This document shows positions 657-24,210 of a stretch of 55,286 bases of DNA, piece by piece. The translations under genes were made by a program, and so were the position numbers. This DNA is from a virus. The stretch's first letter is position 1. Each line of letters begins with the position of its first letter. A model generated the notes under the pieces. That model made no database searches, had not been told where the DNA came from, and worked only from the letters and a program-made list of their open reading frames with translations. The stretch covers positions 1 through 55,286 of IMG/VR virus record IMGVR_UViG_3300027896_000052; one strand, 5' to 3'.

Positions 657-830
657 TTAGCCGGGGCCGAGTTGGTTGACCGGGTTGATCGTGAAATATT
701 CCCATTGGGCCTGGACCAGCGGCGGGATCGGCGGCGGGTGCGGGCCCGGACATGAAGCCGCCGCAAAAATGAGGATGAGCGCCAGCGCGTACAGGGCGCC
801 GGTCAGGCGGATCCGGTGAGTGCTATTCAT
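657..830 (-). CDS. Small lipoprotein-like ORF fused to a tail-protein C-terminal remnant
   Basis: 57 residues; its ATG overlaps the stop of the tail gene above (TGATG). Residues 1-27 look like a signal peptide with a lipobox-like end: basic start, hydrophobic LYALALILIFAAA, then Cys27. A Pro-rich stretch (HPPPIPP) follows. The last 20 residues (LVQAQWEYFTINPVNQ and LGPG) nearly match the C terminus of the allele-B tail protein (54483-55121), and 46 bases of DNA are identical. I infer that recombination left the 3' end of a B-like tail gene behind a new signal sequence. Whether it is expressed is unknown. Confidence 0.6.
   Translation of the reverse strand: MNSTHRIRLTGALYALALILIFAAASCPGPHPPPIPPLVQAQWEYFTINPVNQLGPG
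661..706. repeat. 46-bp identity with 54487-54532 inside otherwise different alleles
   Basis: These 46 bases match 54487-54532 exactly. In allele B they encode the C terminus of the variable tail protein; in allele A they encode the C terminus of the 57-residue lipoprotein-like ORF. The flanks differ on both sides. This is the clearest recombination footprint in the variable locus. Confidence 0.9.
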
Positions 831-1507: not shown

Positions 1508-1520
1508 GACGTTCCCCCCT

Positions 1521-2042
1521 TTAGAGGATGTACCAGGCACCGGCCGCGCCGTCCTGGATCGTTATATTGACCCATTGAGCTGCGATGATGTAGCTCGCAG
1601 CCCCGTCGATCGTTTCGGCCCCGTTCGGGGTCAGGGTGACCGTGAAGGCGGAGGCATCGATTTTCTTGACGTTCAAGATCCGCCCGGTCCCCGTCGCCGC
1701 CGGCAGGCTGACCACCATCGCCCCGCCGACCGCGTTGCAGAGAATTGTGTAATCCGTCGCCGCGGCTGCATAGGGCGAGTCGGCCACGGCCTTTGTCACG
1801 GCCTTCAGGGAAATCCCGGAAAACTTCGGGCTGACATCGCTCGAGCGCGTCGCCTGGAGGACTTCCTCCTCGACCGCGGCGCCTTGATGCATGAGTTTAT
1901 CCGTCCCGGTCCGGCTCATGAGTTCCCCGGCCACGACGTCGGCGGGCGCCGCTGCTCCCCGCCAATTATCTTTGATTTTATTTAAGGTGACATAATCGAC
2001 CCTTTCACCACTTATCGCATCGGCTCCGGTGCTGAGAGGCAT
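1521..2042 (-). CDS. Tail fibre or tail-tip accessory protein
   Basis: 173 residues with a good ribosome site (AGGAG), starting just after the large tail-tip gene. The N-terminal half is Ala- and Thr-rich and likely an attachment and coiled segment. The C-terminal half (YTILCNAVGGAMVVSLPAA, then TGRILNVKKIDASAFTVTL) has the repetitive hydrophobic pattern seen in phage tail-fibre beta domains. It ends WVNITIQDGAAGAWYIL. The allele breakpoint falls inside this gene: bases 1547-1673 are repeated exactly at the contig end, and the last codons differ there. Confidence 0.75.
   Translation of the reverse strand: MPLSTGADAISGERVDYVTLNKIKDNWRGAAAPADVVAGELMSRTGTDKLMHQGAAVEEEVLQATRSSDVSPKFSGISLKAVTKAVADSPYAAAATDYTILCNAVGGAMVVSLPAATGTGRILNVKKIDASAFTVTLTPNGAETIDGAASYIIAAQWVNITIQDGAAGAWYIL
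1547..1673. repeat. 127-bp exact repeat of the contig end (55160-55286)
   Basis: These 127 bases equal the last 127 bases of the window. 127 is a common maximum k-mer in short-read assembly graphs, so an exact 127-base end overlap suggests a contig closed or stopped at a shared graph node. The repeat lies in the 3' part of the 173-residue tail gene and marks the inner edge of the variable locus. Confidence 0.93.
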
Positions 2043-8500: not shown

Positions 8501-8759
8501 TTTTAATACTGAGCTCGTGGATTTCATGGCCGGCTTCCGTCGTTTTCATGATCATCGACGAGAGGACTCCGGTTATCGCCCCGCCGGCGGCAGTCATGGC
8601 CGTACCGATCCCAGCGATTGTCTTGGAATGCCCTAGGATCCCCGCAGCGAGCCCGCTGGCGTCCTTGCCCGCCTCTTTGATCTTGGCTTCCCAGCCGCTC
8701 TTGTCGAGGAGGAGTTTACCAATGATCGACCCGGCTAAAAATCCGCCCATCGTACTCAT
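5541..8759 (-). CDS. Tail tape measure protein
   Basis: 1072 residues, the longest gene in the window, lying between the tail chaperones and the tail-tip genes. The N terminus has the Gly/Ala-rich phage TP901-type pattern (GIGTAMTAAGGAITGVLSSM). A hydrophobic cluster at about residues 270-345 (LSVGGIGAFMVVLGPVLFML and AVAAIAFYLI) and another at 830-900 are typical of tape measures. Long helical, Ala/Lys/Glu-rich stretches fill the middle. It sets tail length and probably enters the host membrane during injection. It overlaps the chaperone frame by ATGA. No muralytic domain seen. Confidence 0.93.
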   Translation of the reverse strand: MSTMGGFLAGSIIGKLLLDKSGWEAKIKEAGKDASGLAAGILGHSKTIAGIGTAMTAAGGAITGVLSSMIMKTTEAGHEIHELSIKTGVGTEILSGYKLAADQNGTSLAGLATGFKFLGKNMEIAGDGGKRTGGAFKELGVDVRETQDGALRPMNDVLLDMADRFSKMEDGPHKSAMAMKVFGKAGADLIPFLNLGRQGLKDNWEEARKLGLIYSEEDAAAANDFKDSLIGLKAGMGGIGKEISTQLLPTLTSVVQGITGVVGKVTTWISGHGELVKIIALSVGGIGAFMVVLGPVLFMLPNIVLGLQMVATALGTTAGALTASVGLWGIAVAAIAFYLIKLHEVAVAEDYAAEAATRLKDAEASLSDKIYMLVENGTLLKEDLDDLTKKYHGNIAAMAMAIKHGEEGIPLQKALAEVGKVHATQLEKEAEAQKKLTIESTGWQDFLKSKSIPTISDANDRITELQHIMTTLGTKLAEHQISWENYKLAMKAAREEIESLTQGSKAWSDFMKTSGINTVQQNRDEIERLKDVLAGLDTAFANGKISQSAYTSARVKATADLQVANDAAIGIDQTYNDRLISLKKDLTNQLVTVGSDAYAKARTDAALEEAEQEKTIFKELGATKDFYDWKALARQALAVKIHGIDMSERDDSLALDAEIMAAERAGEEAAIAGWNNQAQEFSKLESMKMKLSMSSSDYAAWSIAEETRLNIEAVRNNLSLTKEQKDNKIAILQEGLALEQELAAQEASIWNGVISSISSSFSSTISSWAQTLSWDNIFNGKALKSLVGGLWKDIKDTFFTLVGDLAKKWLTDFLENIILKKTSEALATAASNMIDTVGKGIADTASKGAGAIGDVAGVAGKAVGGVATGVISTIANVVTAVASVLDLFKGPQKQTDVTYWLKMIKDLDQEMHDMFRDLIGIMVYEQAQGDEKWWFAVNQIDLAKETNSLLNDIWGETTKVVAALSTVPKAATGAVFETPTLAWVAEKKTEAVLSLDQLAEIATRGSSEKGGGGSIGGEGGRTVNFNMAATFEISAVDGASVRNVVREKIGPELIGWLKTNFGKDQLREALGI

Positions 8760-9324
8760 TGGCTATCCTCCTCCTCGGCTTCGGCTATCTTGATCTGCCA
8801 GCTTAAAATCTCCAGGGCATCGCTCATGTCTTCCGCGCTGCCGTTCATGGCGATCCGGGTTGACGTCAGATTATCGATTTTTCTTTCCAGCACCTTGACT
8901 TTCGCCTTCCGGTGCCAAAAATTAAAATCCCTTATGTCCATCTCCTCCAGGCGATCGTAGGAAATAGAGCCATGGAAGGCGTCAGCAATTATGCCGCAGG
9001 CGTCCCCCCAGGCTTCGAGGCGTTTTTTTCCTCTCCCGTCGGCCCCTTAGCAAGCTGCTTCCGTATCTCGGCGAGGAGATTCCGGATGTCCTTGACGTCG
9101 AGTTCGTTGGCGACCTCGGCCGGGCAGTTGCTGATCAGCGGAAGCTGGCCATAGAGGCCCTCGACCTTGCCCTTGGCGATCTGGAGCTCGAGTTTTTGGG
9201 CCGCCTCGAAACGTGCCCGGTTGATCCTCCCGACCTGGTAGGTCTTGCCGTCGATCTCAAAGGTGAAAGGACTGTGCAAGGCCCCCTTGGTGACGAAACT
9301 CAGAGGTGTTTTTTCAGGGCTCAA
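8756..9324 (-). CDS. Tail assembly chaperone GT, -1 frameshift product
   Basis: Predicted 189-residue fusion of the 111-residue G protein (first 101 residues) with an 88-residue extension in the -1 frame. After slippage at 9022-9028 the -1 frame is open (KKRLEAWGDACGIIADAFH) and runs without a stop into the segment that starts MDIRDFNFWHRK at 8941 and ends at 8756. This is the lambda G/GT arrangement directly before a tape measure gene. The GT protein would bind the tape measure and recruit tail-tube subunits. The 61-residue segment from ATG 8941 could alternatively be made alone. Confidence 0.85.
8989..9324 (-). CDS. Tail assembly chaperone G
   Basis: 111 residues. The likely start is a TTG at 9324 that overlaps the tail-tube stop; no ATG fits. 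It has an alpha-helical, Lys/Glu-rich pattern (ARFEAAQKLELQIAKGKVEG; LAEIRKQLAKG) and contains the slippery heptamer near its 3' end. As in lambda G, it is the more abundant form, with a minority of ribosomes shifting to make GT. Confidence 0.82.
   Translation of the reverse strand: MSPEKTPLSFVTKGALHSPFTFEIDGKTYQVGRINRARFEAAQKLELQIAKGKVEGLYGQLPLISNCPAEVANELDVKDIRNLLAEIRKQLAKGPTGEEKNASKPGGTPAA
9022..9028 (-). promoter_or_regulatory. Programmed -1 frameshift site A AAA AAC
   Basis: Read on the minus strand, GAA AAA AAC is in frame in gene G, giving the canonical X XXY YYZ heptamer AAAAAAC. The zero frame stops at 8989, while the -1 frame is open for 88 codons to 8756. The G-rich stretch CTGGGGGG lies about 13 bases downstream. 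Slippery sequence, open shifted frame and gene order all agree. Confidence 0.88.
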
Positions 9325-10736: not shown

Positions 10737-11048
10737 CTACCCGACGAGGGCCTCGTAATGGTGAATTATTTTCCCATTTTGGCACGGTTCGATGCTCAGG
10801 ACAGGGTGATCGATCCCTCCGAAACGAAGGACGGACCGGATGTCGGCCACGGTCATCGGCTTTCGGGACAACATGACGAGGGCCGTCGCTATGAGTTCCT
10901 CGCCTTTCCCGACTCGGAGGACCCGATGTGTCGTTTCGATCCTGCATTTTTCCGGCGTCAACGTCGGGGCCCCGGAAGGTTCGCCCCATTTATCGAGCGC
11001 CTGCTTCACCACGACCAGGTTATTGATCAGCAGGCTTTCGTAGCTCAT
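10737..11048 (-). CDS. Head-tail stopper / adaptor-like protein
   Basis: 103 residues, overlapping the methyltransferase stop by ATGA. A small beta-rich protein (PEKCRIETTHRVLRVGKGEE; SVLRFGGIDHPVLSIEPC) that sits between the two connector regions. In related phages this slot holds the second connector (stopper). The glycan cassette separates it from the first connector at 16731-17363, so the cassette has been inserted within the neck gene set. Confidence 0.6.
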   Translation of the reverse strand: MSYESLLINNLVVVKQALDKWGEPSGAPTLTPEKCRIETTHRVLRVGKGEELIATALVMLSRKPMTVADIRSVLRFGGIDHPVLSIEPCQNGKIIHHYEALVG

Positions 11049-11866
11049 GGCCGCGGCCCCTTTCCGCCGACCGAGCCGGAAATCGCTCTAGGAAGCCCCA
11101 GGACGGGCTTTTGGCCTCCATCGGGGGTCCTTGCCTGGCCGGCCTGCCGTTCGCCCTGGCCAGCCCCGATTCCGCCACGGCATGGCCGCAAAGGCTTCGG
11201 ACCGCTGGCCCTGATGATGAAAGCCCAATACCAAATGAAATTTCCGAGCCCTGGAGCCGTCCGCGGCGTCCCATCCTGGTTGACTTCCTCCTCCGTCACG
11301 ATTTCCGCCTCGAGGCCGTTCGGCTTCATGGCGCCGTAAATATCGGAAAGCGTCCAATTCACCTGGGGCTCGTAGATCCGGCCCGGATCGACGTCGCGCT
11401 CGCCGCCTGTCCGGACTCGGCAAAATTGGATCAGCATCCCTCCGGCCGGCCTGAGTTTCCAGCCGAAAGTCTCTAGATAATCTTGGGCGACCGCCCGGCT
11501 CAGGTGCTGAAAGACGTTGAAGGAATAAACGAAATCGACATCCGGCATCTGGAGCCCCCAGCCCGGCTTGTATGCGATCGGGTGATAATTGAAGATCCGG
11601 AGACCTTCGAGATAGGTCTCGAGCTCGGGCATGGCCGCCTCGACATCTAGGCAATAAACTGCCTCGACCAGCGGGGCCAGCTTCGCCGCCTCTCGGCCAT
11701 AGCCGCTCCCGATGATGGCGATCCTATGCTCTGGCTTCAGACTAAAATACTCAGCGATCTTCTTGGCGTCCGGGAAGACCCGCGTCCCATGGCCCTGGTA
11801 GTACGGATGTTTGGCGAAATACCCGGCTCGATGCATGGCGTTCCAGGCTTCGGGATCTTTGCTCAT
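11045..11866 (-). CDS. SAM-dependent methyltransferase (class I)
   Basis: 273 residues; start at 11866 overlaps the previous stop by ATGA. SAM-binding motif I is IAIIGSGYGREAAKL, the acidic end of strand 2 is VYCLDVEA, and motif IV-like VDFVYSFNVFQHLS follows. The region after motif IV (GWKLRPAGGMLIQFCRV) is typical of Methyltransf_11/25 enzymes. The last 50 or so residues are low-complexity Gly/Pro/Arg. Last gene of the glycan cassette; a sugar or glycolipid methyltransferase is plausible by context, but the substrate is unknown. Confidence 0.8.
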   Translation of the reverse strand: MSKDPEAWNAMHRAGYFAKHPYYQGHGTRVFPDAKKIAEYFSLKPEHRIAIIGSGYGREAAKLAPLVEAVYCLDVEAAMPELETYLEGLRIFNYHPIAYKPGWGLQMPDVDFVYSFNVFQHLSRAVAQDYLETFGWKLRPAGGMLIQFCRVRTGGERDVDPGRIYEPQVNWTLSDIYGAMKPNGLEAEIVTEEEVNQDGTPRTAPGLGNFIWYWAFIIRASGPKPLRPCRGGIGAGQGERQAGQARTPDGGQKPVLGLPRAISGSVGGKGPRP

Positions 11867-12417
11867 TCGATCACCACCAGATGGCTGAATTTTGATCCCA
11901 GGTCGGTTACCCGGGGGAAAATCTTGAAGTCCGAGGCCTCCCATTGTGAAACGTGGCCAGCCGATCCGTAAAAAACCTGGGAATAGAAAACGACCGCCCG
12001 CGGCGTCGATATCAGAATCTTTGTCCGGTCCTTGGCTTGGGGCTCGGCCTTGATCTCCTGCAGGAATTTCAGCATCCGTTCCTTCGAGGTGTGTTCGACG
12101 ACATCGATCATCAGGATCAGATCATGCATAGCGAAAAAGGGAGGTGGTACTTGAAATAAATTGACATGCGTATGATGGTCATAAAGACTCTGATGCCAAG
12201 GGAGATCGGTAAAATATTCCGCCTCCTCAATGCAGTTGATTTTGAATTTCGGGCGGGGGCTCAGATCTCCGGCCTCCGCAGCTTCGGACAGGAGGAGTTC
12301 GCGGATCAGTAGCCCAAATTTCCCGAAGCCGGCGCCGACGTCGAGGATATTCGTCGGCTTGATCCTCTTGATCGCCAGCAGGATCGCCAAAAGGTTTTCG
12401 GGATATGAGGTCATCAT
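11863..12417 (-). CDS. SAM-dependent methyltransferase-like protein
   Basis: 184 residues, ATGA-coupled on both sides. Motif I is ILDVGAGFGKFGLLI, strand 2 reads INCIEEAEYF, and the post-motif LILMIDVVEHTSKE is typical of class I methyltransferases that act on small molecules or glycans. TKILISTPRAVVFYSQ follows. The fold seems complete though short. Together with the neighbouring methyltransferase it suggests two methylation steps on one glycan or cap. Confidence 0.8.
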   Translation of the reverse strand: MMTSYPENLLAILLAIKRIKPTNILDVGAGFGKFGLLIRELLLSEAAEAGDLSPRPKFKINCIEEAEYFTDLPWHQSLYDHHTHVNLFQVPPPFFAMHDLILMIDVVEHTSKERMLKFLQEIKAEPQAKDRTKILISTPRAVVFYSQVFYGSAGHVSQWEASDFKIFPRVTDLGSKFSHLVVIE

Positions 12418-13319
12418 CGGACGGCCTCCCTGGCCTCGCCGTAAAGGGCCGCGATCCTGGCCGTCACGTTCTCGATCGAGTAGATGGTCATGTCTTCGGG
12501 CGGCTCCGTCCATTCGACTGCCGTGACCTTCCCGGCCCCGTCGACGGTATAAATCCAGCCCGGTTTACCGCAGGCCCAGCCTTCGATCGTCGTCCGGCCC
12601 AGCATGACGCCCGAGGTTTCGTCGCAGGCATGGATATGGTTTTCGATCTCCCAGATCGGGGGATAAATCTTGGCGTTCGCCGGGACATTTTCCGGTTTGA
12701 GGTGATGATTTTGGCCGACTAGCCGGAATTCTCGCTCTGTCTTCCAGCAATATTCGCCCGTCTTTCTGATGGCCTCGAGACGGAGCCTGTCGAAGGTCCC
12801 GACGAAGAGGACCATGGGCCGGGCATCCGGGTCCTGTGGCTGTTCCCGGAGGTATTCATAGTTCCGGTTGAAGCGCGTGAAATCGATTCCGTTCGGAATG
12901 ACGTCGACCCGCTCTGCCGGGATCCCGTCCTTCGCCTCGAGCTTGTCCTTGATGTCCTGGCGGATGGCGATGTATTTGAAGATCCGGGGGCTCAGGATCG
13001 GGGCCTCGCATTCAAATTGAGAGTGGACCGTGCTCACGGCGGCTGCTTTCGGGAAAAGACCGAGGAGGGATTCGCTCGGCTTCCGTTCATTGAGGTGGAG
13101 GACGTCGAAGTCCATCCCGAGAAGCGGGAAGCCCTCGCAGGGCACGGCCGTCAGGCCTGCGGCTTGGGCCCTGGCCAGCATCTCTCCGCCCAGGTTGATG
13201 AGCGGCGCCGTGATGACCGGCTCATGGCCGATTCGCTTCAGCTCCCGGGCGAGTTCGTAGACATACATTTCCGCCCCGGTGAGATCCCGAAACTGTCGGA
13301 TCGAAATCAGGACGCGCAT
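12414..13319 (-). CDS. Glycosyltransferase, GT-B (family 4-like)
   Basis: 301 residues. The N-terminal half has GAEMYVYELARELKRIGHE, the usual donor-side loop and helix of GT4 enzymes. The linker has VDVIPNGIDFTRFN, a hallmark of the family, followed by VLFVGTFDRLR. The C-terminal domain has GRTTIEGWACGKPGWIY, equivalent to the E-x-G-x-P donor-binding loop. The length is near minimal. No membrane segment, so probably cytosolic. It overlaps the preceding GT2 gene by 13 bases. Acceptor and sugar cannot be told. Confidence 0.85.
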   Translation of the reverse strand: MRVLISIRQFRDLTGAEMYVYELARELKRIGHEPVITAPLINLGGEMLARAQAAGLTAVPCEGFPLLGMDFDVLHLNERKPSESLLGLFPKAAAVSTVHSQFECEAPILSPRIFKYIAIRQDIKDKLEAKDGIPAERVDVIPNGIDFTRFNRNYEYLREQPQDPDARPMVLFVGTFDRLRLEAIRKTGEYCWKTEREFRLVGQNHHLKPENVPANAKIYPPIWEIENHIHACDETSGVMLGRTTIEGWACGKPGWIYTVDGAGKVTAVEWTEPPEDMTIYSIENVTARIAALYGEAREAVR

Positions 13320-14050
13320 GCTCGCCGCTCTTCTTTCTTCCGGGCATAAAGGGCTGAGTTTCGCTTGGCGAGGCTCTGCCAGCCATCGATTTTCTGGACC
13401 GTCTGGCGATGCCTGTGGTAGATGAAAACATGGAGGGCGAGGGCGGTTTGCCAGCCGGCCTTCCGGGCCCGGTCGCAGTAGTCATCGTCCTCGCCAAGGC
13501 AAAGCCCGAATTCCTCATCTAGCTTCCCGACCGCCTCGAGGGTTGCTCTCCGGATGGCGACGCAGCAGAAGGGGACGCAGGAGACCATGATCTGCCGGAG
13601 CCGAGGCGGCTGGGCGTTGAAATAGGCCTCCGGATCTCCGGTCCGGTAGCCCGTGATCAGGGAAAATCGCTCCCATCTCTGGATGCCGCCCGTATCCGTC
13701 ACGACTCCAAGGATCCCGAGCCGCGGATGTTCCTCGAGGGCTGCCAGCATCTTGTCCGTCCAGCCGGCCGTGACGACCGTGTCATTGTTGAGCAGGAAAA
13801 TCGGGTCCGATTCCGCCATGGCGAATCCCCGGTTGACCGCCTTTGAAAACCCCTCATTTTCCGGGAGCATCTGGCCGATCCATGGAAGTCCGAGTTGAGT
13901 AAGGACGAGCCTCACGACGGCCCGCTCCGCCTCGATCGATCCATTGTCGATCCAAATGATCCGGGCATCCGGTGTGTGCTTCCGGATAGAACGGAGGCAG
14001 TCGATCGTGAGATCACAGTTATTCCAGGTCGGGATGATGATATCGATCAT
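13307..14050 (-). CDS. Glycosyltransferase family 2
   Basis: 247 residues; the start at 14050 overlaps the previous stop by ATGA. The nucleotide-binding start is IDIIIPTWNNCDLTIDCLRS, a DXD-like metal site appears in FLLNNDTVVT, and the acceptor-side motif is LGEDDDYCDRARKAGW. This is the rhamnosyltransferase/WsaE-type GT2 pattern (ENEGFSKAVNRGFAMA). No transmembrane helices. Adds one sugar from a nucleotide donor. Confidence 0.9.
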   Translation of the reverse strand: MIDIIIPTWNNCDLTIDCLRSIRKHTPDARIIWIDNGSIEAERAVVRLVLTQLGLPWIGQMLPENEGFSKAVNRGFAMAESDPIFLLNNDTVVTAGWTDKMLAALEEHPRLGILGVVTDTGGIQRWERFSLITGYRTGDPEAYFNAQPPRLRQIMVSCVPFCCVAIRRATLEAVGKLDEEFGLCLGEDDDYCDRARKAGWQTALALHVFIYHRHRQTVQKIDGWQSLAKRNSALYARKKEERRACAS

Positions 14051-14727
14051 CGGCTGGGATCCTTTTGATCCGTGAGGCCCCATACGAGGCCCGCGGCTTT
14101 CCTGGCCATGCTCAGGGCCCGGTCTTGCTCCCTGAGTTTCCGGGCGTCGACATGCGTTTGATCCATTTCATGGCCATTATTCATCGGGTGGAAATGGATG
14201 AGCTCGGCGCGCGGTTCGAGCCAAAGCCGTCCGACGGTCAAGGCGTGGTTTTCGACTTCCTGGCAGGAAAAATGGAAATAGCCGGGATAGAACAGTTTTC
14301 TTCCCGGGTACCGGCGAAGGAAAGGTTGGCCGACCAGGGCGCACCCAGCCGGGCTGAAGACGCCGCATCCGATTTGGCTGAAACCGATGATCCCATCCTC
14401 ATCCGGGAAGTGTTCGGCCATGGCCTTGACCGCCGCTTCGATCGCTCCGGGCTGGAAAGCGATATCATCGGTCCCGTAAATCAGGGCGTCCTCCGCCCCC
14501 TGGGTGATAAGGTTCCGGCAAAAGACCGACCCGGAATGTTCCCGGATGAAAAGGACCCGGGAGATCCGGGGGTCCTCGAGGATGGCCTTCGACGTCTGGA
14601 CGTCACCATCGCAGACGACCGTGGTGAATATCGGGATCCCGCCGGCAGATGCCGGGATCGTCCCCAAGGTCCGCTTGAGCTTCTCCGGCCGGTTCCGCGT
14701 CGGGATGATCAGGTCGAGGCGCTTCAT
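14047..14727 (-). CDS. Glycosyltransferase family 2-like
   Basis: 226 residues. The N terminus LDLIIPTRNRPEKLKRTL and the central ALIYGTDDIAFQPGA (DD at the expected metal site) mark a GT2/GT-A fold. The C-terminal region HFSCQEVENHALTVGRLWLE and ELIHFHPMNNGHEMD replaces the usual EDxD loop and is His-rich. ATGA-coupled at both ends. It is diverged relative to its GT2 neighbour, so the two probably add different sugars. Confidence 0.82.
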   Translation of the reverse strand: MKRLDLIIPTRNRPEKLKRTLGTIPASAGGIPIFTTVVCDGDVQTSKAILEDPRISRVLFIREHSGSVFCRNLITQGAEDALIYGTDDIAFQPGAIEAAVKAMAEHFPDEDGIIGFSQIGCGVFSPAGCALVGQPFLRRYPGRKLFYPGYFHFSCQEVENHALTVGRLWLEPRAELIHFHPMNNGHEMDQTHVDARKLREQDRALSMARKAAGLVWGLTDQKDPSR

Positions 14728-15599
14728 GCGAGGGCCTCTTTATAGGCCGCGACGTATTCCTTGACGCCGTCTATCGCATGCCATTCACTTTCGACCCAGC
14801 TTCGGGCCAACTCCTGATGGAGTTTCAAAACCCCGGGATTATCGATGAGCTCCAGGAGCCGCTCCTCGAGGCTTTTCAAATCTGCCCGGACCCAGGGCAC
14901 GGCGTTGTTTTTATTGATGACCGCGCAGCCGAAGCAAGCCCCCTCGAGAGAGGTCCGGTGGAAGTTCCCCGTCACAACGTCGTCGATCAGGATATCGCTG
15001 ATACTTTTCATCTCGAGGTTCCTCTCGTAAGGTACCCCTTCGATCCAGATGATCTCGACATCCCGCTTGCCGGCGACTTCCTTCAGGATCCTCTTGACCT
15101 CGGCATAACCTTTCGTTCCCGGGAAGCCGAGAGGCATCCGGGTGCTTGGGGCGAAGGCGATCCGGACCTTGGTCCCTTTCCGACTCGGGCGGTATTCGTC
15201 CGGGTCGATCAGGTTCGGCAGGGCCGGCAGGCCATATTCCCGCTCCTGCAGAGGCTGGCGGATCGTGTACCGGATGGGCGTAAAATCCCACAGTTCTTTC
15301 CAATTCCCGAGCCGTGGGAGGCTATGAAATTGGGCAACGACGGGTTGGCCGGACCGTAAATCCGGAAGTTCCCGATGCATGTAATTGTGAACGTGCCATA
15401 GATCAGCGGCTGCCAAAATCGCCCTGCTTCCGTCATCCTTGCAGTTCAATTTGAGATCGATCGGGAAGATCCTGCCGTCTGGATAACCGATGTACTCGTT
15501 AATGAGGCGGACTTGGATATCCGTATATTTCCGCAGGGCCTTGAGTAGCTCCCAGGGCGCCGCGGCGAGCGGCGTTTTGCTGAAGATGGCGAGTTTCAT
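14724..15599 (-). CDS. Glycosyltransferase, GT-B (family 1/4-like)
   Basis: 291 residues. The N-terminal domain has DLWHVHNYMH, the middle has LPNLIDPDEYRPSRKG, and the C-terminal domain has IAFAPSTRMP with GTKGYAEVKRIL and a donor loop HRTSLEGACFGCAVINK. This is the order of a GT4 enzyme with a shortened C-terminal domain. Start and stop overlap neighbours by 4 bases. Cytosolic, with unknown sugar and acceptor. Confidence 0.83.
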   Translation of the reverse strand: MKLAIFSKTPLAAAPWELLKALRKYTDIQVRLINEYIGYPDGRIFPIDLKLNCKDDGSRAILAAADLWHVHNYMHRELPDLRSGQPVVAQFHSLPRLGNWKELWDFTPIRYTIRQPLQEREYGLPALPNLIDPDEYRPSRKGTKVRIAFAPSTRMPLGFPGTKGYAEVKRILKEVAGKRDVEIIWIEGVPYERNLEMKSISDILIDDVVTGNFHRTSLEGACFGCAVINKNNAVPWVRADLKSLEERLLELIDNPGVLKLHQELARSWVESEWHAIDGVKEYVAAYKEALA

Positions 15600-16003
15600 T
15601 CGCTTTCCCTCGCCATCGCCTTGAGCTCGGCGATCGTCTTCATGCCGCCGCGGGTCCGGCGCTCGATATCCGGCTCCAGGAGTTCGGACGTATAGATCTC
15701 GATGACCTCGCTGTCTTCAATGGCCTGGAATTGATGCCATATCCCGGGCGCACAGACGAATTCCACGCCCGCTCGAAGCCTGGTCTGGTCGATCATGCTT
15801 TTCCGATGGTCGCGGGGGTTTTCGGAATCTCGCCAGGTCAGGATGATGAGCTCGCCTCTCAGGACCGTGATGTGGTTCGTTTTGATCCAATGGCGATGCT
15901 CGCTCGAGAAGCCCCCCTTCTTGATCTCCAGGCAATGAACGGCGACCATTTTGTTCTGGAAAACGAGGGAAGTCTCACCCCACACCTTTCCTTCCGTCAT
16001 CAT
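15596..16003 (-). CDS. Cupin-fold sugar epimerase/isomerase-like protein
   Basis: 135 residues with a single cupin domain: SSEHRHWIKTNHITVLRGEL gives cupin motif 1 (His residues and the G.L end), and GVEFVCAPGIWHQFQAIED gives motif 2. WxHxF..EDSEVIEIYT resembles the mannose-6-phosphate isomerase type II or WxcM-like families. In a glycosyltransferase cluster a nucleotide-sugar or sugar-phosphate modifying role is the natural guess. ATGA-coupled to both neighbours. Confidence 0.75.
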   Translation of the reverse strand: MMTEGKVWGETSLVFQNKMVAVHCLEIKKGGFSSEHRHWIKTNHITVLRGELIILTWRDSENPRDHRKSMIDQTRLRAGVEFVCAPGIWHQFQAIEDSEVIEIYTSELLEPDIERRTRGGMKTIAELKAMARESE

Positions 16004-16734
16004 GCTAGTGCCTCCTCCATCCTTTGAAATTCAAAGCATCGAAGCCCGCTGTCGGGGTTGAGATTGATGACTCGTACCCCGCGACGCGCGAGCTCCGGAG
16101 CGATCTTCTCGAAAGCGGCCCGGAAGCCAATGACCTTGGCCTCATCCTGGGGGATCGGATGCCCGGCGTGGTAATGGCTTTTCCCGTCCTTGTGCTTCAT
16201 GTCGAAGCCCAGTAGGTAGATCGGGTTGGCCCCGAGGAGTACGGCCAGGTTGAAAGCCGCGAAGCCGCTATTATTTCCATGGCCGATGCCTTCCGAATAG
16301 TTCCAGCTAAATTCCCGGAGGCCATAGTCATAATTCTTGAGGACCCGGACGACGAAAATATCATCCGGGAGTTGAGCCGTATAGGTCAGGAGCCAGGCTT
16401 TATAGGCGGTCGTTTTATTGAACCGCGCCTGCAGACCAGGGAATTTATGTTCGTAGGTCCCGCCGAGGATCCAATTCAGGCAGCGGGTATCCATGGAGAA
16501 GATGACTGTCGGTTCGAAATCCTTGAAGGCGATATTGACGGCGATCGTCCGCCGGCCGCGGAGCCGGCGCCAATCGAAGCCTTCGAGGCTGGGCCCGCCG
16601 CCGATCAGGTATGCCGGCTTCTCGAGCCAGCTTCCCGCCGGCAGGACCTCGATCAGTTCCCGGTTCAGACAAATCGGAGAGCGGAAAAGCACGGGCGGCC
16701 GGCTTGCGAGGCTGGGGGCGGGCTGGATGTTCAT
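16000..16734 (-). CDS. DUF115-like / MptE-type protein, possible glycosyltransferase
   Basis: 244 residues. The nucleotide-binding part is AYLIGGGPSLEGFDWRRL and TIAVNIAFKDFEPTVIFSMD; the second half has NNSGFAAFNLAVLLGANPIY and LLGFDMKHKDGKSHYH. This is the pattern of DUF115 proteins (related to motility-accessory and some sialyltransferase-like enzymes). First gene of the cassette, ATGA-coupled to the connector gene before it. I take it as a sugar-transfer or sugar-activation protein with modest confidence. Confidence 0.7.
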   Translation of the reverse strand: MNIQPAPSLASRPPVLFRSPICLNRELIEVLPAGSWLEKPAYLIGGGPSLEGFDWRRLRGRRTIAVNIAFKDFEPTVIFSMDTRCLNWILGGTYEHKFPGLQARFNKTTAYKAWLLTYTAQLPDDIFVVRVLKNYDYGLREFSWNYSEGIGHGNNSGFAAFNLAVLLGANPIYLLGFDMKHKDGKSHYHAGHPIPQDEAKVIGFRAAFEKIAPELARRGVRVINLNPDSGLRCFEFQRMEEALA

Positions 16735-17363
16735 GGGGCCAGAATGATGGCCTTCCGCCCGCAGAAGGGCCGGATCAGTTCATCGACCTCCCGGATCCCG
16801 GTCTTGTAAAGAGCCGCCGGGCCGCTGAAGGTGTAACTGTATTTCGAGATCGATTCCGAGCCCAGAAGATAATTCGTGTAGAGGGTCGGATCGTTCATGT
16901 ACTCGACCAGCATCCGGGCGGCTTTCTTTGCCCAGGCCGGTACGGGACTTCCGCAGGTCCCATCGATCCAGATGTTGTTATAACCCCGCGGGAAGATGAC
17001 CTCGCCATCCTGTATTTCGGAGAGTAGGTATTCAAGTTCGGGGCTGAAAGGCCCGGCGCCGCTCGTGCTCAGGTCAATGAAGATGCTCGAGGAATCGAAC
17101 GTGTACCAACTCGTATCGAGTACGATGCCGGAAACCCGGACGCGCGAGATCCCGGTGATCTTCTCCCGGATCGGGAGGAAGAGCCGGTTTTTTCCGTTTC
17201 CATTGATCTTGAGGAGAAAGGGTTTCGGATAATAGGACCGCTTCAGGGCCGCTTCGAGCCGGGCCTCGGCGACTTCGATGGCTTCCTGCTTTTCGGCATC
17301 CGTTGTCCCTGACGGCCAGTTCCCGATGTCGCTATCGCTTATGTAATTCCCGGAATAAGGCAT
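16731..17363 (-). CDS. Head-tail connector protein (gp6-like)
   Basis: 210 residues with ribosome site CGGAGGA. The N-terminal helices (AEKQEAIEVAEARLEAALKR), the central beta part and the C-terminal helix (PAWAKKAARMLVEYMNDP) match the gp6/gp15 connector pattern. It follows the capsid genes and a strong terminator. It probably forms the ring below the portal. Its stop overlaps the first gene of the glycan cassette by ATGA. Confidence 0.75.
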   Translation of the reverse strand: MPYSGNYISDSDIGNWPSGTTDAEKQEAIEVAEARLEAALKRSYYPKPFLLKINGNGKNRLFLPIREKITGISRVRVSGIVLDTSWYTFDSSSIFIDLSTSGAGPFSPELEYLLSEIQDGEVIFPRGYNNIWIDGTCGSPVPAWAKKAARMLVEYMNDPTLYTNYLLGSESISKYSYTFSGPAALYKTGIREVDELIRPFCGRKAIILAP

Positions 17364-17465: not shown

Positions 17466-18212
17466 TCAGACGATCCGGGCCATGACGGCCTTGACGTAGT
17501 CGACCGAGAGGTTCTTGGCGACCGCCTCTCCGTTCATGAGGCCGAATCCGGCCGAGAGCGGGACCCCGACAGGGAAACCCGTAGCGACTTCGCCCTGGGC
17601 CAAGACGATCCCGGCGTCCGTGAAGATGAACCAGCGGACCGTCCCGGCGCCGTCGTAATGGATGCCGAAGATCGCGTAGGTCGCGTTGACCGCGTCGATC
17701 AGGGTGTCCACATCGATGACGACCGTCGAGTCCTCGACGCCGAAGAAGATGCTGGCCGCGCCGTCATCCTTGTGGAAATAGACGCCGTGAGCCGTGCTGC
17801 CGCCCAGGTATTCCAGGTCGACCAGGCCGAAGAAGAAGTCCGACTGGACGACGTCGTTGATCTTGAACCGGCCCTCCAGGTAGACCGGAAATCCGGCCTG
17901 AAGGATGAAGCTCAGGGGCGACAGATACTGCGTCTTGTCGTTGTCGGCCGCGGCGTTCGTGATCAGGAGGATCCCATTCGCTCCGCTCGTGACGACGTTC
18001 GTCCCGGCGCCGGTCTTCGAGACCGTCCAGACCCCGGAGGCCGCTTCCAGGAAGTGGTCCTCGAGGCGGACCGCGCTTCGCAGGTCGACATAGTTCTTGA
18101 TGACGTCCCACTTGTCGTGGTTGATGTGCGTGTTCAGGGGGTAGAGGTCCATGAGATAAAGCTCCGGGACCGTCCCTCCCAACCCGTAATGCGGGAAGTG
18201 TTCGTTATCCAT
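17466..18212 (-). CDS. Capsid-associated (decoration-type) protein, beta-rich
   Basis: 248 residues; the start at 18212 has GGAGGG upstream and overlaps the previous gene by 8 bases. It lies two genes after the major capsid protein. The body looks like a jelly-roll or concanavalin-like domain (LEDHFLEAASGVWTVSKTG; GILLITNAAADNDKTQYLS; YLEGRFKINDVVQSDFFFGL). The N-terminal 45 residues (NEHFPHYGLGGTVPELYL) may anchor it. This resembles, in style, the variable tail-tip proteins, which raises a surface-binding role. No family named. Confidence 0.65.
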   Translation of the reverse strand: MDNEHFPHYGLGGTVPELYLMDLYPLNTHINHDKWDVIKNYVDLRSAVRLEDHFLEAASGVWTVSKTGAGTNVVTSGANGILLITNAAADNDKTQYLSPLSFILQAGFPVYLEGRFKINDVVQSDFFFGLVDLEYLGGSTAHGVYFHKDDGAASIFFGVEDSTVVIDVDTLIDAVNATYAIFGIHYDGAGTVRWFIFTDAGIVLAQGEVATGFPVGVPLSAGFGLMNGEAVAKNLSVDYVKAVMARIV

Positions 18213-18519
18213 TGGCTCCCTCCAGAAGCGAAACAAGATCGGCTTTCTTCATATGCATGAAGTTGGCCTTGGCTTTCCGCCGTGCCGCGAGGGTCCGAAG
18301 TTCATTGATTTTGAGCTTCCGATAATCCGACAATTTGAGTCGAGGCCGTTCACCTCCGAGCGGTTCCTGGACTTCGACTGTCAATAGCGGGAATTTCGAA
18401 AGCTCGATCAAAGCGAGATCTCCGGTCACCTCCCGGGTTTCGCGGGCGGCGATGTGGACGTTTCCGATGCAGGTGGGAAACTCCCGGGTCGGTCCCCAAT
18501 TCGTGACAAGGGCGCGCAT
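18205..18519 (-). CDS. Small capsid-region protein with SAP/Rho-N-like end
   Basis: 104 residues, 17 bases after the capsid gene. The C terminus (RLKLSDYRKLKINELRTLAA, then KADLVSLLEG) resembles the short helix-extended-helix of Rho-N or SAP domains that bind nucleic acid and are often present in head-completion proteins. The N-terminal half (FPTCIGNVHIAARETREVTG) is beta-like. Function unknown; a head-completion protein is likely by position. Confidence 0.65.
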   Translation of the reverse strand: MRALVTNWGPTREFPTCIGNVHIAARETREVTGDLALIELSKFPLLTVEVQEPLGGERPRLKLSDYRKLKINELRTLAARRKAKANFMHMKKADLVSLLEGANG

Positions 18520-18536: not shown

Positions 18537-19652
18537 TTAGCAGTTGTGCTCGAGGCAGCGGATCAGAACGACGGCGTTCGGATTCTCGAGGGCCAGATCG
18601 ACCCGCATCGAGTAGAAGATGTAGGTCGCCTCGTCCTCGGGCGCGCGCTTGCTCTCGAGTTTGATGTCCCGCTGGATCCCGACGATCAGGTTCCCCTTCG
18701 GGGTGAGCAGGACGTCCGTATAGTTCCCGGCGCCGAGGATTCCGTCGGTCGAAGGCGTGGCCGTCGGATCGCCGAGAGTCGTCGGCATGAGCGGGCAGTC
18801 CAGGATCGGGACCCGTCCGTACTGGGGAGTCATCTCCCCCTTGAACACGGCGTCCCCGATGGCCGTCGACCGCGCGCTTAGGGCTCCAAGATAATCCTGG
18901 GTCACGAGGTCGCTGTTGAGGAAGCTCATGTTCTTGAGCCCGTTTTGGGTTTTGTACTTGGAGGGCATGTTCTTGAGGGCCTGGTGGTACTTGAATTCCC
19001 AATTGTAGGGCTGGGTCGTGGCCTGTTCCGCGATCAGGCCGTCCATCGAAAAGTCGGAGCCCGACGTCCCGCCTTCGCAGGCGTTCAGGATGTGGGGCTC
19101 GCCGGCGACCGCGTTGTAATAGGCCCCGCCGATCGAGGAGTGGGTGATGCGGTACCGCCAGCCGTCCCACATGCCGCGGATGTCGTCGACCGGGAAGCCG
19201 TTGAGGCCGTGGGTCTCGGAGATCCAAAAGGCTTCCTCCAGCTCGTTGGCGATCTTCGCCGTGATGATCTTCATGAGCTGGTTCTTGTAGGCGTCGGCCG
19301 TGATCCCGACCGGCAGGTCCTCGAGGTCGTCGTCGAAGACGGTGATCGCCCCTCGGACCTTCTGGGTCGTCAGGGTGATCTTCGAGGAGACCCATTGCTT
19401 CTTGTACTTGGTCTCGTTGAATTGGGCTCCGGGATAGAGGAAGTGCCCGCTGCCGAAGCCGATCGCCCGGATCAGCTTCTGGGGCTTGCCCATGCGTTCG
19501 ATGCGGGCGTAGTCCTTCATGACCGACTCGTCGACCATGTAGTCGATGAAGCGGTCCGCCTCCTCCTCCGTGAGCGTGATCGTCGGGAGGGAGATGAGGT
19601 TGTACCCCTTCTCCATCTTGAACCGCTCGAGCAGTTTCTTGGTCGTATTCAT
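18537..19652 (-). CDS. Major capsid protein (HK97 fold, PBSX XkdG-type)
   Basis: 371 residues, after the scaffold gene and an AGGAG ribosome site. Expected features are present: an N-terminal helical arm, a spine helix with ITADAYKNQLMKIITAKIANEL, a TPQYGRVPILDCPLMP stretch, and the end LLTPKGNLIVGIQRDIKLES with MRVDLALENPNAVVLIRCLE, which is typical of HK97-fold capsids. Scaffold and protease genes precede it. Should be the most abundant virion protein. Confidence 0.88.
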   Translation of the reverse strand: MNTTKKLLERFKMEKGYNLISLPTITLTEEEADRFIDYMVDESVMKDYARIERMGKPQKLIRAIGFGSGHFLYPGAQFNETKYKKQWVSSKITLTTQKVRGAITVFDDDLEDLPVGITADAYKNQLMKIITAKIANELEEAFWISETHGLNGFPVDDIRGMWDGWRYRITHSSIGGAYYNAVAGEPHILNACEGGTSGSDFSMDGLIAEQATTQPYNWEFKYHQALKNMPSKYKTQNGLKNMSFLNSDLVTQDYLGALSARSTAIGDAVFKGEMTPQYGRVPILDCPLMPTTLGDPTATPSTDGILGAGNYTDVLLTPKGNLIVGIQRDIKLESKRAPEDEATYIFYSMRVDLALENPNAVVLIRCLEHNC

Positions 19653-20714: not shown

Positions 20715-23111
20715 TCAGTCTGCTTTTTTGGTCCAAACCGCCGCGGCCTTCCGCGCGGTCCCGCCCATGGAGAAGCCCGTGAGCTTTCCGCTCTGGACTT
20801 CCCCCCAAATCTCGGGATCCGTGACCTTGATCATCATCCACCACGAGCCGGCTTTAATGATCTCTGTCCCTTTTTTCATGTCGGCTTCGGGTTGGAAGCT
20901 CTCCAGGATCGGGAAATAATGGGCCGTCCCTTTGTGCATGACCTTGATCCGATTCGGATTTTTGGCGTAGCGTTCCATGAAGGAATACATCGCCGCGGTG
21001 ATCTCGGCGGCCGTGGTCATGTCGCCCTGGGTATCGACGGCGTTCGGTTCGTAGATGATCCCCCCGCAGATCTGCTGGGCGGCATCGACTTTCCGGATCT
21101 GGAAGACGAGGCGCTTCGAGAACCAGGCCCGCTTCTCCGTGCCCTCTGCCTTTTTGAATTCGGGCGGCTCCTTCTCAAATTCCGCATAATGGGATTTCAG
21201 GTGGTCATAGATCCCGGATCTGTCGGCGACCGGGACGGAGATCTGGGTGCGTCCGCCCTGAAGGGCCGCCATCGCAGCCGCGACGCCCCGCCAGACCGCC
21301 TTCAGACCGTCGGCGTGGTGATGGGGCAGCTTGTAACTCCCTTTGTTGTCCGGAGCTGCAGGATCGACCCATGCACAGATCTTCGCCAGCGTCTCGACGT
21401 CGGCAGCCGCGACCTCGGCGCCAGCGTCCCAGGCCTCAGCCTCCGGAGCCGTCCCATAATCGTGATAGGGGATGACGCCGGCCGCGGCTTTCCCAAAAGG
21501 CTTGGGGGCATGAGCCTCGGCCCAGGTCTTCGCCTTCTCCTCCGTCCATTTGTTCTTGTCGAAGAGGTAGGCCTGGATGTGGGTCGTCCCGCTATTGTCG
21601 GCGGTAAGGTTCCCGATGACGGCTTTGATCCCAAGATCTGCCGAGAGATCGATTATCCGAAACGAATCTTGGGCGAAATCGGCGGGATCCGTGATGCGGA
21701 CCCGGACGTATGCATCGGTCGTCCGGGCCTCGAATTTGTGCATTTTCACCATCTTACGGGCTTCGATTGCTCCATCTGCCCAGGCCGCCTCCTCCTCGAT
21801 CAGATCGAGAACATGTTGAGATGATGGCAGGGTCCGCTTTTTGATATGGCTATCGACCCAGGCTTGGGCGGCTTCCATCGTCCATTTCGTTTTGTCGAAA
21901 AGGTAGGTTGCGATCTGGTGATCGGTCACATCCTCGAGGGCTTTGATCCCCTGGGCCTCGCTCAGGATGATCGTCCGGATTTCATGACCCGCCGGGATGG
22001 CCCGGACCGGGATCCGGCGCAGGGTCATGGTCGTTTCGGGTTTGGCGATGACTTCCTGAGCCGCCTTGTCCGCGCGGAGCCGGTCTCGGAATGTCGTCTC
22101 TTTCATCAGTTCGATATTTTCTTTCGTGTCCATGGATGCCTCCCGTTTTTCGGTTTGAATATCATCTTGCGGGATGTTCTCACCAGACCCGCCAGGATTT
22201 CCTTCATCGATCGCCAAGGCCGAGGGATCGATCTTTTCGATCGGATCCTCATCCTTGCCCTTGCCCAACTCGACCGCCGGATCCGGACCGCCGCCGGGTG
22301 AGTTCGGCTTATTGCAGATGCCGCCGACCGGCTCCTCGTCGCCGCAGATAATACATCGGGGATGGCCATTCGGATGCGTCCACTTCGCGGGCTCGAATTT
22401 GTGTACGCCTTTGGCTTTCGCGCTCTTTGCGCTCTCTCGGATGACGGCGCTCTCGGCTTCGAAGCTCGCTTTTTCCGCCGGCGTCAGGGCTTTCCCGATC
22501 TCGAATTCAGCGTTCCCGTCGCCTCCGTTGCCGGGTACGATTTTATTCGTCGGTTTGGGCCGGAGGACTAGGTCGAAGACCGGCATATGGCTTCTGCCAC
22601 AGCCGGCGTGTTCGTAGGCAACCTGGATATCCTTCCCCGTTTCCTGCAGGGCCTTGGCCAGGCAGGCTTCGAGGGTCGCCGAGCTGTAGAAGATCCCGCG
22701 GTCTGTCCTTCCCGCCTTGATGACCACCTGGACGGCCGAGGCCTCCCGGGGATTTTTAATGAAGTCCCCGGTGATCGCCACGTAATCGTTCGCCAGCACG
22801 ATGTCGCCGAGCCCGGGAACATCCAGGCTCCAGAGCCCCTTCCGGACGACCCGGTCTTTCACCAGGCGATCGATCTCGCGTTCGCCCGAAATCGGAAGTC
22901 CGCGGCGAGTCATCTCAACCCGGAGCTCGACGTACCGGCTCAAGAAATCGCATTTCGCCATTCCGCGGATTTGATCTGTCGCCGGGTCATGGAAGAATCG
23001 ATCGAAAAGCTGGACGAAGCGGAAACGAAAATCTCGCAGCTCTCCATCATCCATGGCCTTGAAGGTCTCGGCCTTCGCTTCTTCGATGAGGTGTTTAAAT
23101 TTGGCCGGCAT
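20715..23111 (-). CDS. Multidomain prohead protein with C-terminal XkdF-type protease
   Basis: 798 residues. The C-terminal 120 residues match putative phage protease XkdF: GGIIYEPNAVDTQGD, a His in RIKVMHKGTAHYFPI, GSWWMMIKVTDPEIWGEV and the serine in LTGFSMGGTARK. The His and Ser are the likely catalytic pair. The N-terminal part (about 1-230) has a separate fold, then a zinc-knuckle-like CIICGDEEPVGGICNKP. Two copies of a repeat (YLFDKTKWTMEAAQAWVDSH and YLFDKNKWTEEKAKTWAEAH) lie in the middle. Probably cleaves scaffold and capsid arms during maturation. Unusually long for XkdF. Confidence 0.78.
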   Translation of the reverse strand: MPAKFKHLIEEAKAETFKAMDDGELRDFRFRFVQLFDRFFHDPATDQIRGMAKCDFLSRYVELRVEMTRRGLPISGEREIDRLVKDRVVRKGLWSLDVPGLGDIVLANDYVAITGDFIKNPREASAVQVVIKAGRTDRGIFYSSATLEACLAKALQETGKDIQVAYEHAGCGRSHMPVFDLVLRPKPTNKIVPGNGGDGNAEFEIGKALTPAEKASFEAESAVIRESAKSAKAKGVHKFEPAKWTHPNGHPRCIICGDEEPVGGICNKPNSPGGGPDPAVELGKGKDEDPIEKIDPSALAIDEGNPGGSGENIPQDDIQTEKREASMDTKENIELMKETTFRDRLRADKAAQEVIAKPETTMTLRRIPVRAIPAGHEIRTIILSEAQGIKALEDVTDHQIATYLFDKTKWTMEAAQAWVDSHIKKRTLPSSQHVLDLIEEEAAWADGAIEARKMVKMHKFEARTTDAYVRVRITDPADFAQDSFRIIDLSADLGIKAVIGNLTADNSGTTHIQAYLFDKNKWTEEKAKTWAEAHAPKPFGKAAAGVIPYHDYGTAPEAEAWDAGAEVAAADVETLAKICAWVDPAAPDNKGSYKLPHHHADGLKAVWRGVAAAMAALQGGRTQISVPVADRSGIYDHLKSHYAEFEKEPPEFKKAEGTEKRAWFSKRLVFQIRKVDAAQQICGGIIYEPNAVDTQGDMTTAAEITAAMYSFMERYAKNPNRIKVMHKGTAHYFPILESFQPEADMKKGTEIIKAGSWWMMIKVTDPEIWGEVQSGKLTGFSMGGTARKAAAVWTKKAD

Positions 23112-24210
23112 CCCCTCCCCCTTCCCCTCGAGGGATCTCTTCTCCCATTTTCAGACCTTCCATGAAATCGCAGGTCGAGACCGCCGAGCATCGGAGGATT
23201 GTCAACCAGCCGTGCTTCTTCCACCAGCAGCAAGCCTGCTTTTCAAAAAGCGGGGATCCACATTCCGGACATTTTCGATTTGGATCGGCCGGCCCGATCC
23301 GTCCCTGGAGTTCGATATGCTCCCGGGCGAGTTTCAGGATATAGGCGGCGATGGCTTCCGGCTTCAGGTGGTGCTCATAATAATCTCGGCCAGCCTCCTC
23401 GACTGTCTTGCGATCGGCCGGCCGCTCGAGCCATTCCTGCATGATCGCCGTCGCGTTCGAGAAGTCCGGGGCGACCTCGATGAAGGCGCCGGTCAGGGGA
23501 AAAGCCACGGCGACCGTGAGAGGCGGGGCGATGAGGGCCGTGCCGATGCCGAAGGTTTCGGTATGCCGCCAGGTCCAGGGCCCGATCCCAGGCGCCGTGA
23601 CGTTCAGGTCGGCCCTGGCGATCGCCTGGCAATACTGGACAGCCGTGAGTTTCGGGCCCCAAAGGGCTTGGGGGACCTCCGGGCGGTTCGACCTGCCCGA
23701 TACCCCGGCTAAGATCGTCTTCCCCTTGGGCGCCTTGACAGCCTTCGTCGCCGCGACCGCCTTGCATCGGACCTCGTAGGCCGTAGACCGCAGCAGGGCG
23801 ATGGCGGCGTAGAGGCGAATGCCGCTGGCCCGGATGGCCCGATATTCCGCGAGGCCGTCCATGAGATGCGGCCCGCAGGCGATCCCTATCGGGTAGAAAT
23901 CGGGTCGCCCGGCATCCTCGTGGGTCAGGTTCATCTTGAGATAGATATCATCCTTCGCCATGACCTCCGGGTGGATTACGTGAGGAAAATCGGCGAAGTC
24001 GTACCAGGCCCTCATCATCCTGTCTTCGTCCTCGACCTGGATCGGGATGACGCCCTTACCCTCGAATCCCAGGGCTCCATGGACCATCGCCAGGAGGGCC
24101 TTGTCTTCCTTGAAGTCGATCCCTTTGGTCTGGTAGAAACCGCTGCGTAGAAAATGGGCGTAAAATTCTGCTCCATGGCCACAGGTCGGAGGCATCCGGA
24201 CTTTAAGCAT
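23095..24210 (-). CDS. Glycosyltransferase-like protein with C-terminal zinc ribbon
   Basis: 371 residues. The region near 220-315 resembles the C-terminal half of spore-coat/GT1-2 type glycosyltransferases: ETFGIGTALIAPPLTVAVAF, GAFIEVAPDFSNATAIMQEW, then ADRKTVEEAGRDYYEHHLKP. The end carries CPECGSPLFEKQACCWWKK, a zinc-ribbon-like Cys set. The N terminus (PPTCGHGAEFYAHFLRSGF) is also Cys/His-bearing. It sits between the MuF-like and protease genes, an odd place for a glycosyltransferase. The link is a weak pattern match. Confidence 0.5.
   Translation of the reverse strand: MLKVRMPPTCGHGAEFYAHFLRSGFYQTKGIDFKEDKALLAMVHGALGFEGKGVIPIQVEDEDRMMRAWYDFADFPHVIHPEVMAKDDIYLKMNLTHEDAGRPDFYPIGIACGPHLMDGLAEYRAIRASGIRLYAAIALLRSTAYEVRCKAVAATKAVKAPKGKTILAGVSGRSNRPEVPQALWGPKLTAVQYCQAIARADLNVTAPGIGPWTWRHTETFGIGTALIAPPLTVAVAFPLTGAFIEVAPDFSNATAIMQEWLERPADRKTVEEAGRDYYEHHLKPEAIAAYILKLAREHIELQGRIGPADPNRKCPECGSPLFEKQACCWWKKHGWLTILRCSAVSTCDFMEGLKMGEEIPRGEGGGDAGQI

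Follow-up and report, generated by a model that had tools for sequence, protein, structure and literature searches.

We analyzed a single virus record of 55,286 bases (IMG/VR record IMGVR_UViG_3300027896_000052; this whole stretch is called the window below), focusing on a cassette of eight co-directional genes on its minus strand (16734-11045), flanked by the genes for a head-tail adaptor (HTA) and a head-closure protein (HC). The cassette is probably a phage-encoded glycosylation locus, which acts in the cytoplasm and modifies a head or neck protein during assembly; the enzymatic activities, the acceptor, the linkage, the sugar and the purpose are all ones that we infer. Among phages, particle glycosylation has been documented only for a few mycobacteriophages, and the comparative data point to a recurrent locus for it, shared by the phages D3, PAJU2 and P1/P7 and by uncultured phages from several capsid lineages.

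An earlier reading of this DNA from sequence alone (the sequence-only reading) had placed an eight-gene run between a connector and a neck gene. Indeed, all of its open reading frames (ORFs) are present, with borders matching phrog_442 and phrog_793. The same reading had nearly all of the genes joined by ATGA overlaps, and the bases bear this out: four-base ATGA overlaps occur at eight of the nine junctions from HTA to HC, both the HTA/ST115 and the MT1/HC borders included, a count that requires the inner starts of GT2b (14050), MT2 (12417), and MT1 (11866). The exceptional junction is GT2b/GTB2, with a 13-base overlap. The genes, with expectation values (E), are as follows.

16731..17363, minus strand: HTA, head-tail adaptor, upstream border (phrog_442, E 7e-14; ATGA overlap with ST115)
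16000..16734, minus strand: ST115, DUF115/MptE-like, sialyltransferase-like putative glycosyltransferase, anchor gene (phrog_4603, E 2e-28)
15596..16003, minus strand: CUP, predicted cupin-fold, sugar isomerase/WbuC-like, second core gene (Cupin_2 8e-4, WbuC 4e-4)
14724..15599, minus strand: GTB1, proposed GT-B glycosyltransferase, matching no family (inspection and context)
14047..14727, minus strand: GT2a, GT2-like glycosyltransferase, fourth core gene (TIGR04440 6e-4, PF00535 0.06)
13307..14050, minus strand: GT2b, GT2 glycosyltransferase, variable arm (PF00535 7e-18; longest ORF start 14083)
12414..13319, minus strand: GTB2, GT4-type GT-B glycosyltransferase, variable arm (PF13439 6e-13)
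11863..12417, minus strand: MT2, class I S-adenosylmethionine (SAM) methyltransferase, variable arm (PF13489 1e-4; longest ORF start 12513)
11045..11866, minus strand: MT1, class I SAM methyltransferase, variable arm (PF08242 1e-5; longest ORF start 11944)
10737..11048, minus strand: HC, head closure/neck gene (head-tail adaptor/closure), downstream border (phrog_793, E 7.5e-9; Pfam match to Minor_capsid_1 below that family's cut-off)

The family support for these proteins is uneven. Glycosyltransferase genes are present, since GT2b and GTB2 exceed the Pfam cut-offs and thus retain their labels firmly, but the other labels of the sequence-only reading proved softer: the matches of both methyltransferases, the cupin and the DUF115-like protein are sub-threshold in Pfam, that of GT2a is weak, and GTB1, which matched nothing, is proposed as a glycosyltransferase from inspection and context only. 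CUP appears to be a cupin-fold protein of the WbuC/sugar isomerase type, judging from its sub-threshold cupin matches and its profile matches to CapF and oxalate decarboxylase in the PDB.

For the anchor protein ST115, the profile of phrog_4603 (alpha-2,3-sialyltransferase-like) matched residues 44-244. The match to PF01973 (DUF115/Maf_flag10), at 26.0 bits (E 9e-6), did not reach the curated cut-off of 34.6, and profile searches of the PDB with ST115 and with GTB1 yielded nothing significant; we therefore describe ST115 as Maf-like or DUF115-like and do not file it as a PF01973 member. A GxGPSL-type motif and a C-terminal NSG...LG..PIYLLG are what we take to be the motifs of the PF01973 family. 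GGGP and HG.NSG...A.N.A..LGA.P.YLLG are invariant across the ST115 alignment, and the window protein reads GGGPSL and HGNNSG...LGANPIYLLG; its first motif aligns with GNGPSL of Cst-II at an insignificant E. An AlphaFold2 (AF2) model of ST115 (predicted local distance difference test, pLDDT, 83) matched viral DUF115/MptE-like proteins in BFVD with E 5e-7 to 1e-4 and template modeling (TM) scores of about 0.4-0.5. The Foldseek alignments of this model to PDB entries, poor and of the Rossmann type with TM scores below 0.35, were discarded as fold evidence.

Conserved base and variable arm

Relatives were collected via the major capsid protein (MCP), GTB1, and ST115. A scan of viral contigs with the single ST115 sequence gave no loci, and an alignment-based scan gave 55. 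Among the 57 contigs that hold both MCP and HTA with room to judge, ST115 stands directly after HTA in 45, a few of them near-duplicates, at MCP identities from 73 to 52%; since it is conserved at this exact spot in 45 relatives, its placement is not due to chance. The order continues with CUP-GTB1-GT2a and then other genes before HC in many relatives, and a different arm follows ST115 in others. GTB1 was found in 32 viral loci, and nearly all of those whose upstream DNA is present have CUP upstream, sometimes with one or two genes between; it is confined almost wholly to this phage group, and among phage isolates it is nearly absent, with one match of 25% in the phage records. The remaining 12 contigs, with more distant capsids (MCP 43-57%), have no ST115 after HTA, and in the cassette-free L112 and L130, HTA overlaps an HC-like gene directly.

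A maximum-likelihood tree of MCP with 51 rows separates the 40 cassette-bearing phages from the 11 cassette-free ones by one branch (support 100/99), and the cassette state changes once on this tree, as compared with 10.1 times in shuffles. The cassette thus underwent a single gain or a single loss, the MCP tree being unrooted. The distances of ST115, CUP, GTB1, and GT2a correlate with those of MCP (rho 0.43-0.57) as well as those of HTA (0.40) or HC (0.37) do. The median ratios of nonsynonymous to synonymous substitution (dN/dS) are 0.043 for ST115, 0.042 for GTB1, 0.052 for MCP, and 0.061 for HTA, values that are meaningful only to the order of magnitude with several synonymous distances saturated. 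The constraint on ST115 and GTB1 matches that on the capsid protein, and such co-inheritance and constraint are not expected of a cargo gene. In the cassette-free L133, sulfotransferase-like and GT2 genes follow a gp10-like neck gene (7234-8963); glycan genes seem to have entered the neck region there a second time and independently.

The last four genes of the window (GT2b, GTB2, MT2, and MT1) have almost no counterpart in the relatives, and no relative covering 60% of GTB2 was found among the fetched loci. In the relatives, a family scan of 122 arm proteins, from which the cupin, GTB1, and GT2a genes were excluded, mostly returned glycosyltransferases, SAM methyltransferases, and sulfotransferases, with minor matches to PIG-L (de-N-acetylase type), LicD, an epimerase, a cytidylyltransferase and similar families; many arm proteins match nothing. 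Because the matches fall mostly into those three classes, the arm varies in detail and keeps a constant theme. The sequence-only reading had asked whether relatives would carry these genes as unrelated, independently gained units. The answer differs along the cassette: the anchor, together with CUP, GTB1, and GT2a where present, keeps a fixed place and is inherited along with the capsid protein, whereas the relatives lack GT2b, GTB2, MT2, and MT1 as a set, and these four were acquired separately.

Three side observations concern these relatives. An additional sulfotransferase-like gene lies upstream of the capsid gene in L058/L059 (3947-4534) and L060 (2566-3153), phages that also carry one in the arm. 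L002, L003, and L004, the nearest contigs to the window (MCP 94-100%), all end in HTA or just short of it, on the margin of the variable region; assemblers may tend to break off at this point. A host assignment was dropped, as the three genome contigs with related capsids were binned to Desulfobacterales, Thermoplasmatota, and Aminicenantes, which is too mixed.

In the pathway that we propose, ST115, a soluble DUF115/Maf-like protein, would place the first sugar on a Ser, Thr, or Cys residue of a conserved virion protein, and GTB1, GT2a, and the arm glycosyltransferases would extend the chain by one sugar each. CUP would tailor a sugar, and the end would be capped by the methyltransferases in the window phage, and by sulfotransferases, de-N-acetylases, or LicD in the relatives. 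The initiating part is kept and the outer part swapped among phages, as expected under host or environmental selection on the outer glycan.

Candidate acceptors

The most likely acceptor would be MCP or a conserved head-side protein encoded next to it.

18537..19652, minus strand: MCP, major capsid protein, HK97 fold, candidate acceptor (phrog_1623, E 2e-43)
19062..19079, minus strand: MCP residues 192-197, loop after Ala191, candidate glycosylation site (single phylogenetic contrast)
17466..18236, minus strand: conserved head-side protein between MCP and HTA, alternative acceptor (in 39 cassette phages and 4 without the cassette)

The AF2 model of MCP matched HK97-fold capsids with E down to 1e-12. 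The loop after Ala191 is present in 40/40 cassette-bearing phages and 0/11 cassette-free ones; its first residue is Cys, and Glu/Gln, Ser, Gly, and Thr are abundant in it. This makes it a candidate site, indicating only where to look first, and since the cassette-bearing and cassette-free groups are sisters on the tree, it amounts to a single contrast. The head-side protein has the strongest distance correlation with ST115 (rho 0.62). As a cassette-specific acceptor it was rejected as not diagnostic, because it also occurs in the cassette-free L127, L130, L131, and L133. Its gene and another at 830-1540 (minus strand), at opposite ends of the structural region, encode similar-looking beta-rich patterns, and neither has a Pfam or PHROG match.

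Related loci in other phages

ST115 homologues were also found in other capsid lineages, a biased sample, as the profile that retrieved them was built from the first group, but one whose own capsids formed no part of the query. The homologue stands just after the major capsid gene in L173 (phrog_267), L175 (phrog_617), and L180 (phrog_247), and close to it in L171 (phrog_1328), with three small ORFs between. In L160, L170, and L172 it adjoins a phrog_24071 protein, which we take as a capsid protein.

Among isolates, Pseudomonas phage D3 has ST115 (orf7) between the major head protein and the head-tail adaptor, and a GT9-like gene (orf12) and a methyltransferase gene (orf13) after Hc1; in PAJU2 the same three kinds of genes (gp10-12) stand side by side after Hc1. 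D3 orf12 and orf13 are homologous to arm genes of L006/L066, L089, L103, and L179, and the set is thus shared, which is more than a resemblance. A DNA-level search of the phage records with the ST115 region of L103 gave nothing. D3 and PAJU2 resemble the window in placing these genes among the head-tail genes, but they have only three of them, split in D3 across Ad1 and Hc1, and their capsids are not close to that of the window; their records give no function for these genes. Tetraselmis viridis virus S20 likewise carries two ST115 homologues, glycosyltransferases, and methyltransferase(s) before Hc1 (TVGG_00041-00049), but its capsid is unlike that of the window and neither CUP nor GTB1 has a match. 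No functional report on the S20 genes turned up in the literature searched. The sequence-only reading had regarded a pathway of this size and position as unusual; it is not unusual in this phage group, and D3, PAJU2, and S20 hold smaller versions.

P7 hdmB and hdmC and P1 pmgO are relatives of ST115. P1 pmgO/pmgP/pmgQ and P7 hdmB/hdmC/hdmD, called morphogenetic, comprise two DUF115-like proteins and a glycosyltransferase (hdmD), but lie near tail/baseplate genes. P1 pmgO, pmgP, and pmgQ were scored nonessential for plaques (PMC10695390), and their dispensability fits decoration better than a structural need.

As a tentative extension, somewhat short of an even chance, D3-, S20-, and possibly P1-like phages and a large clade of uncultured tailed phages might coat the capsid or neck with a multi-sugar glycan that is begun by a Maf-like enzyme and finished by interchangeable methyl- or sulfotransferases. 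If true, this would be a viral counterpart of the flagellin glycosylation islands, built on a conserved base and with an outer glycan specific to the phage, and it may include a sulfated virion glycan, the first from a bacterial virus. The genes of D3, PAJU2, and P1/P7, so far labelled hypothetical, 'sialyltransferase' or 'morphogenetic', now come with a testable hypothesis (in PAO1 or E. coli), which would change views on the chemistry of the capsid surface, the stability of phage particles, their shielding from antibodies, and the way they adsorb to surfaces.

The O-glycosylation of flagellin, which takes place in the cytoplasm and precedes assembly, is carried out by Maf proteins; their central PF01973 domain is similar to Cst-II (PMC4065374, PMC11339370). 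The proposed system resembles those of Aeromonas, Campylobacter, and Clostridium in its PF01973-type domain, in being a soluble cytoplasmic transferase, and in targeting a structural protein before assembly, and Maf systems often come with larger glycan islands, as here. However, ST115, of about 240 amino acids, has a single domain and lacks those that flank it in Maf proteins, no genes for the synthesis of nonulosonic acids were seen in the window, and the proposed acceptor is a virion protein.

Phage-encoded virion glycosylation is already known in mycobacteriophages, where phage glycosyltransferases of Che8, Corndog, and Myrna are reported to modify capsid and tail proteins (Freeman et al. 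2023, as described in PMC12363180 and PMC11256854). These are individual glycosyltransferases, that of Maravista lying near the 3' end of the genome, outside the structural operon, and the passages concerned mention neither a DUF115 anchor nor a cassette conserved at the head-neck junction, and no sulfotransferases or variable arms. What is new here is the recurrent DUF115-anchored head-neck cassette, its build of conserved base and variable arm, the sulfotransferases, and the link to the unexplained D3 and P1 genes; no paper describing such a cassette was found in the literature searched, which is not proof of absence.

Destination of the proposed glycan and alternative explanations

None of the eight cassette proteins has a transmembrane-like segment, and among 246 arm ORFs nine have one and none has two or more. 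The multi-pass flippase or polymerase, or the initiating phosphoglycosyltransferase, of a Wzx/Wzy or ABC-type export system was seen neither in these 246 ORFs nor in the eight genes of the window. Lacking multi-pass membrane proteins, the locus does not encode export that depends on a flippase or polymerase. The sequence-only reading had suggested a methylated oligosaccharide on a virion protein or on host material; of this, a glycan pathway linked to the late structural genes and free of membrane or export components is retained and is most easily read as virion-protein glycosylation, but methylation is only one of several terminal modifications.

Several points weigh against virion glycosylation. 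The family assignment of ST115 is built on a sub-threshold Pfam match, a PHROG match, and modest fold evidence, with no Foldseek match of its model in the PDB at E<=0.001, and GTB1 has no match in Pfam, PHROG, or NCBIfam. The MCP loop represents one evolutionary contrast. P1 pmgO is a nonessential gene located close to the tail genes, and the relevant passages of a P1 cryo-electron microscopy paper do not mention capsid glycans. In Klebsiella phage Eowyn, the triad of ST115, GT9-like, and methyltransferase genes stands outside any recognised structural operon, and in Caulobacter and Brevundimonas phages ST115-like genes follow the tail genes and precede the lysis genes. The Eowyn triad (L190 5998-8083), homologous to D3 orf7/12/13, is free-standing and runs in the direction opposite to its neighbours.

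The placements in Eowyn and in the Caulobacter and Brevundimonas phages would also suit enzymes that alter a surface or storage glycan of the host late in infection, for superinfection exclusion, release, or receptor masking, in which case the late-operon position would reflect timing only. Bacterial envelopes, too, are decorated by glycosyltransferases, methyltransferases, and sulfotransferases. This explanation is nevertheless unlikely: the 246 arm ORFs showed no multi-pass membrane protein of any kind (flippase, polymerase, undecaprenyl-phosphate transferase, or other), several mutually unrelated capsid lineages have kept the anchor gene beside genes for the capsid or neck, and its constraint and co-inheritance equal those of virion genes.

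It is very unlikely that ST115 and its partners serve assembly by making a non-glycan product for morphogenesis, such as a cofactor of the nucleotide or pterin-like kind that the MptE-like name might imply. The PF01973 name does also cover 6-hydroxymethylpterin diphosphokinase, and the P1/P7 records label their genes morphogenetic, but the PHROG match of ST115 is to a sialyltransferase-like family, its neighbours are glycosyltransferases and sugar-modifying enzymes, and P1 pmgO is dispensable (PMC10695390). Moron-like cargo, that is, a run of metabolic genes that arrived by horizontal transfer and are tolerated within the late operon with no common function, would account for the wide variation of the arms and for the last four genes of the window not being shared as a set. 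We regard it as highly improbable, as the first gene, and the first four in many relatives, is kept in order down to about 52-55% MCP identity with dN/dS near 0.04, and the arm variation stays within one theme.

Phages do use glycosyltransferases on modified bases of their genomes, as with the glucosyltransferases of T4. In Shewanella phage Thanatos, cytosine is reported to be pentose-modified (PMC12838424). We give hardly any credence to such DNA hypermodification here, since none of the ten ORFs scanned among the larger non-structural ones has a Pfam match to a hydroxymethylase, a thymidylate synthase-like protein, or a base-modifying enzyme (nine match nothing), and it would poorly explain long chains capped with sulfate or methyl groups and the co-translation with head genes. 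The one Pfam match among these ten ORFs, at 42011-42700 (minus strand), is to DUF5131 (PF07505, E 2e-10).

Three further features of the window were recorded.

23095..24210, minus strand: glycosyltransferase-like gene among the head genes, possible outlying cassette member (PF13524 1.4e-4, below cut-off), with a homologue inside the cassette of L023/L051
25700-26284, minus strand: gene between head genes, whose product has an N-terminus like that of a lipoprotein (LLFSSCAIA) and a signature resembling that of tyrosine phosphatases (HCQHGSDRT)
31837-32160, minus strand: small ASCH-like protein, by inspection

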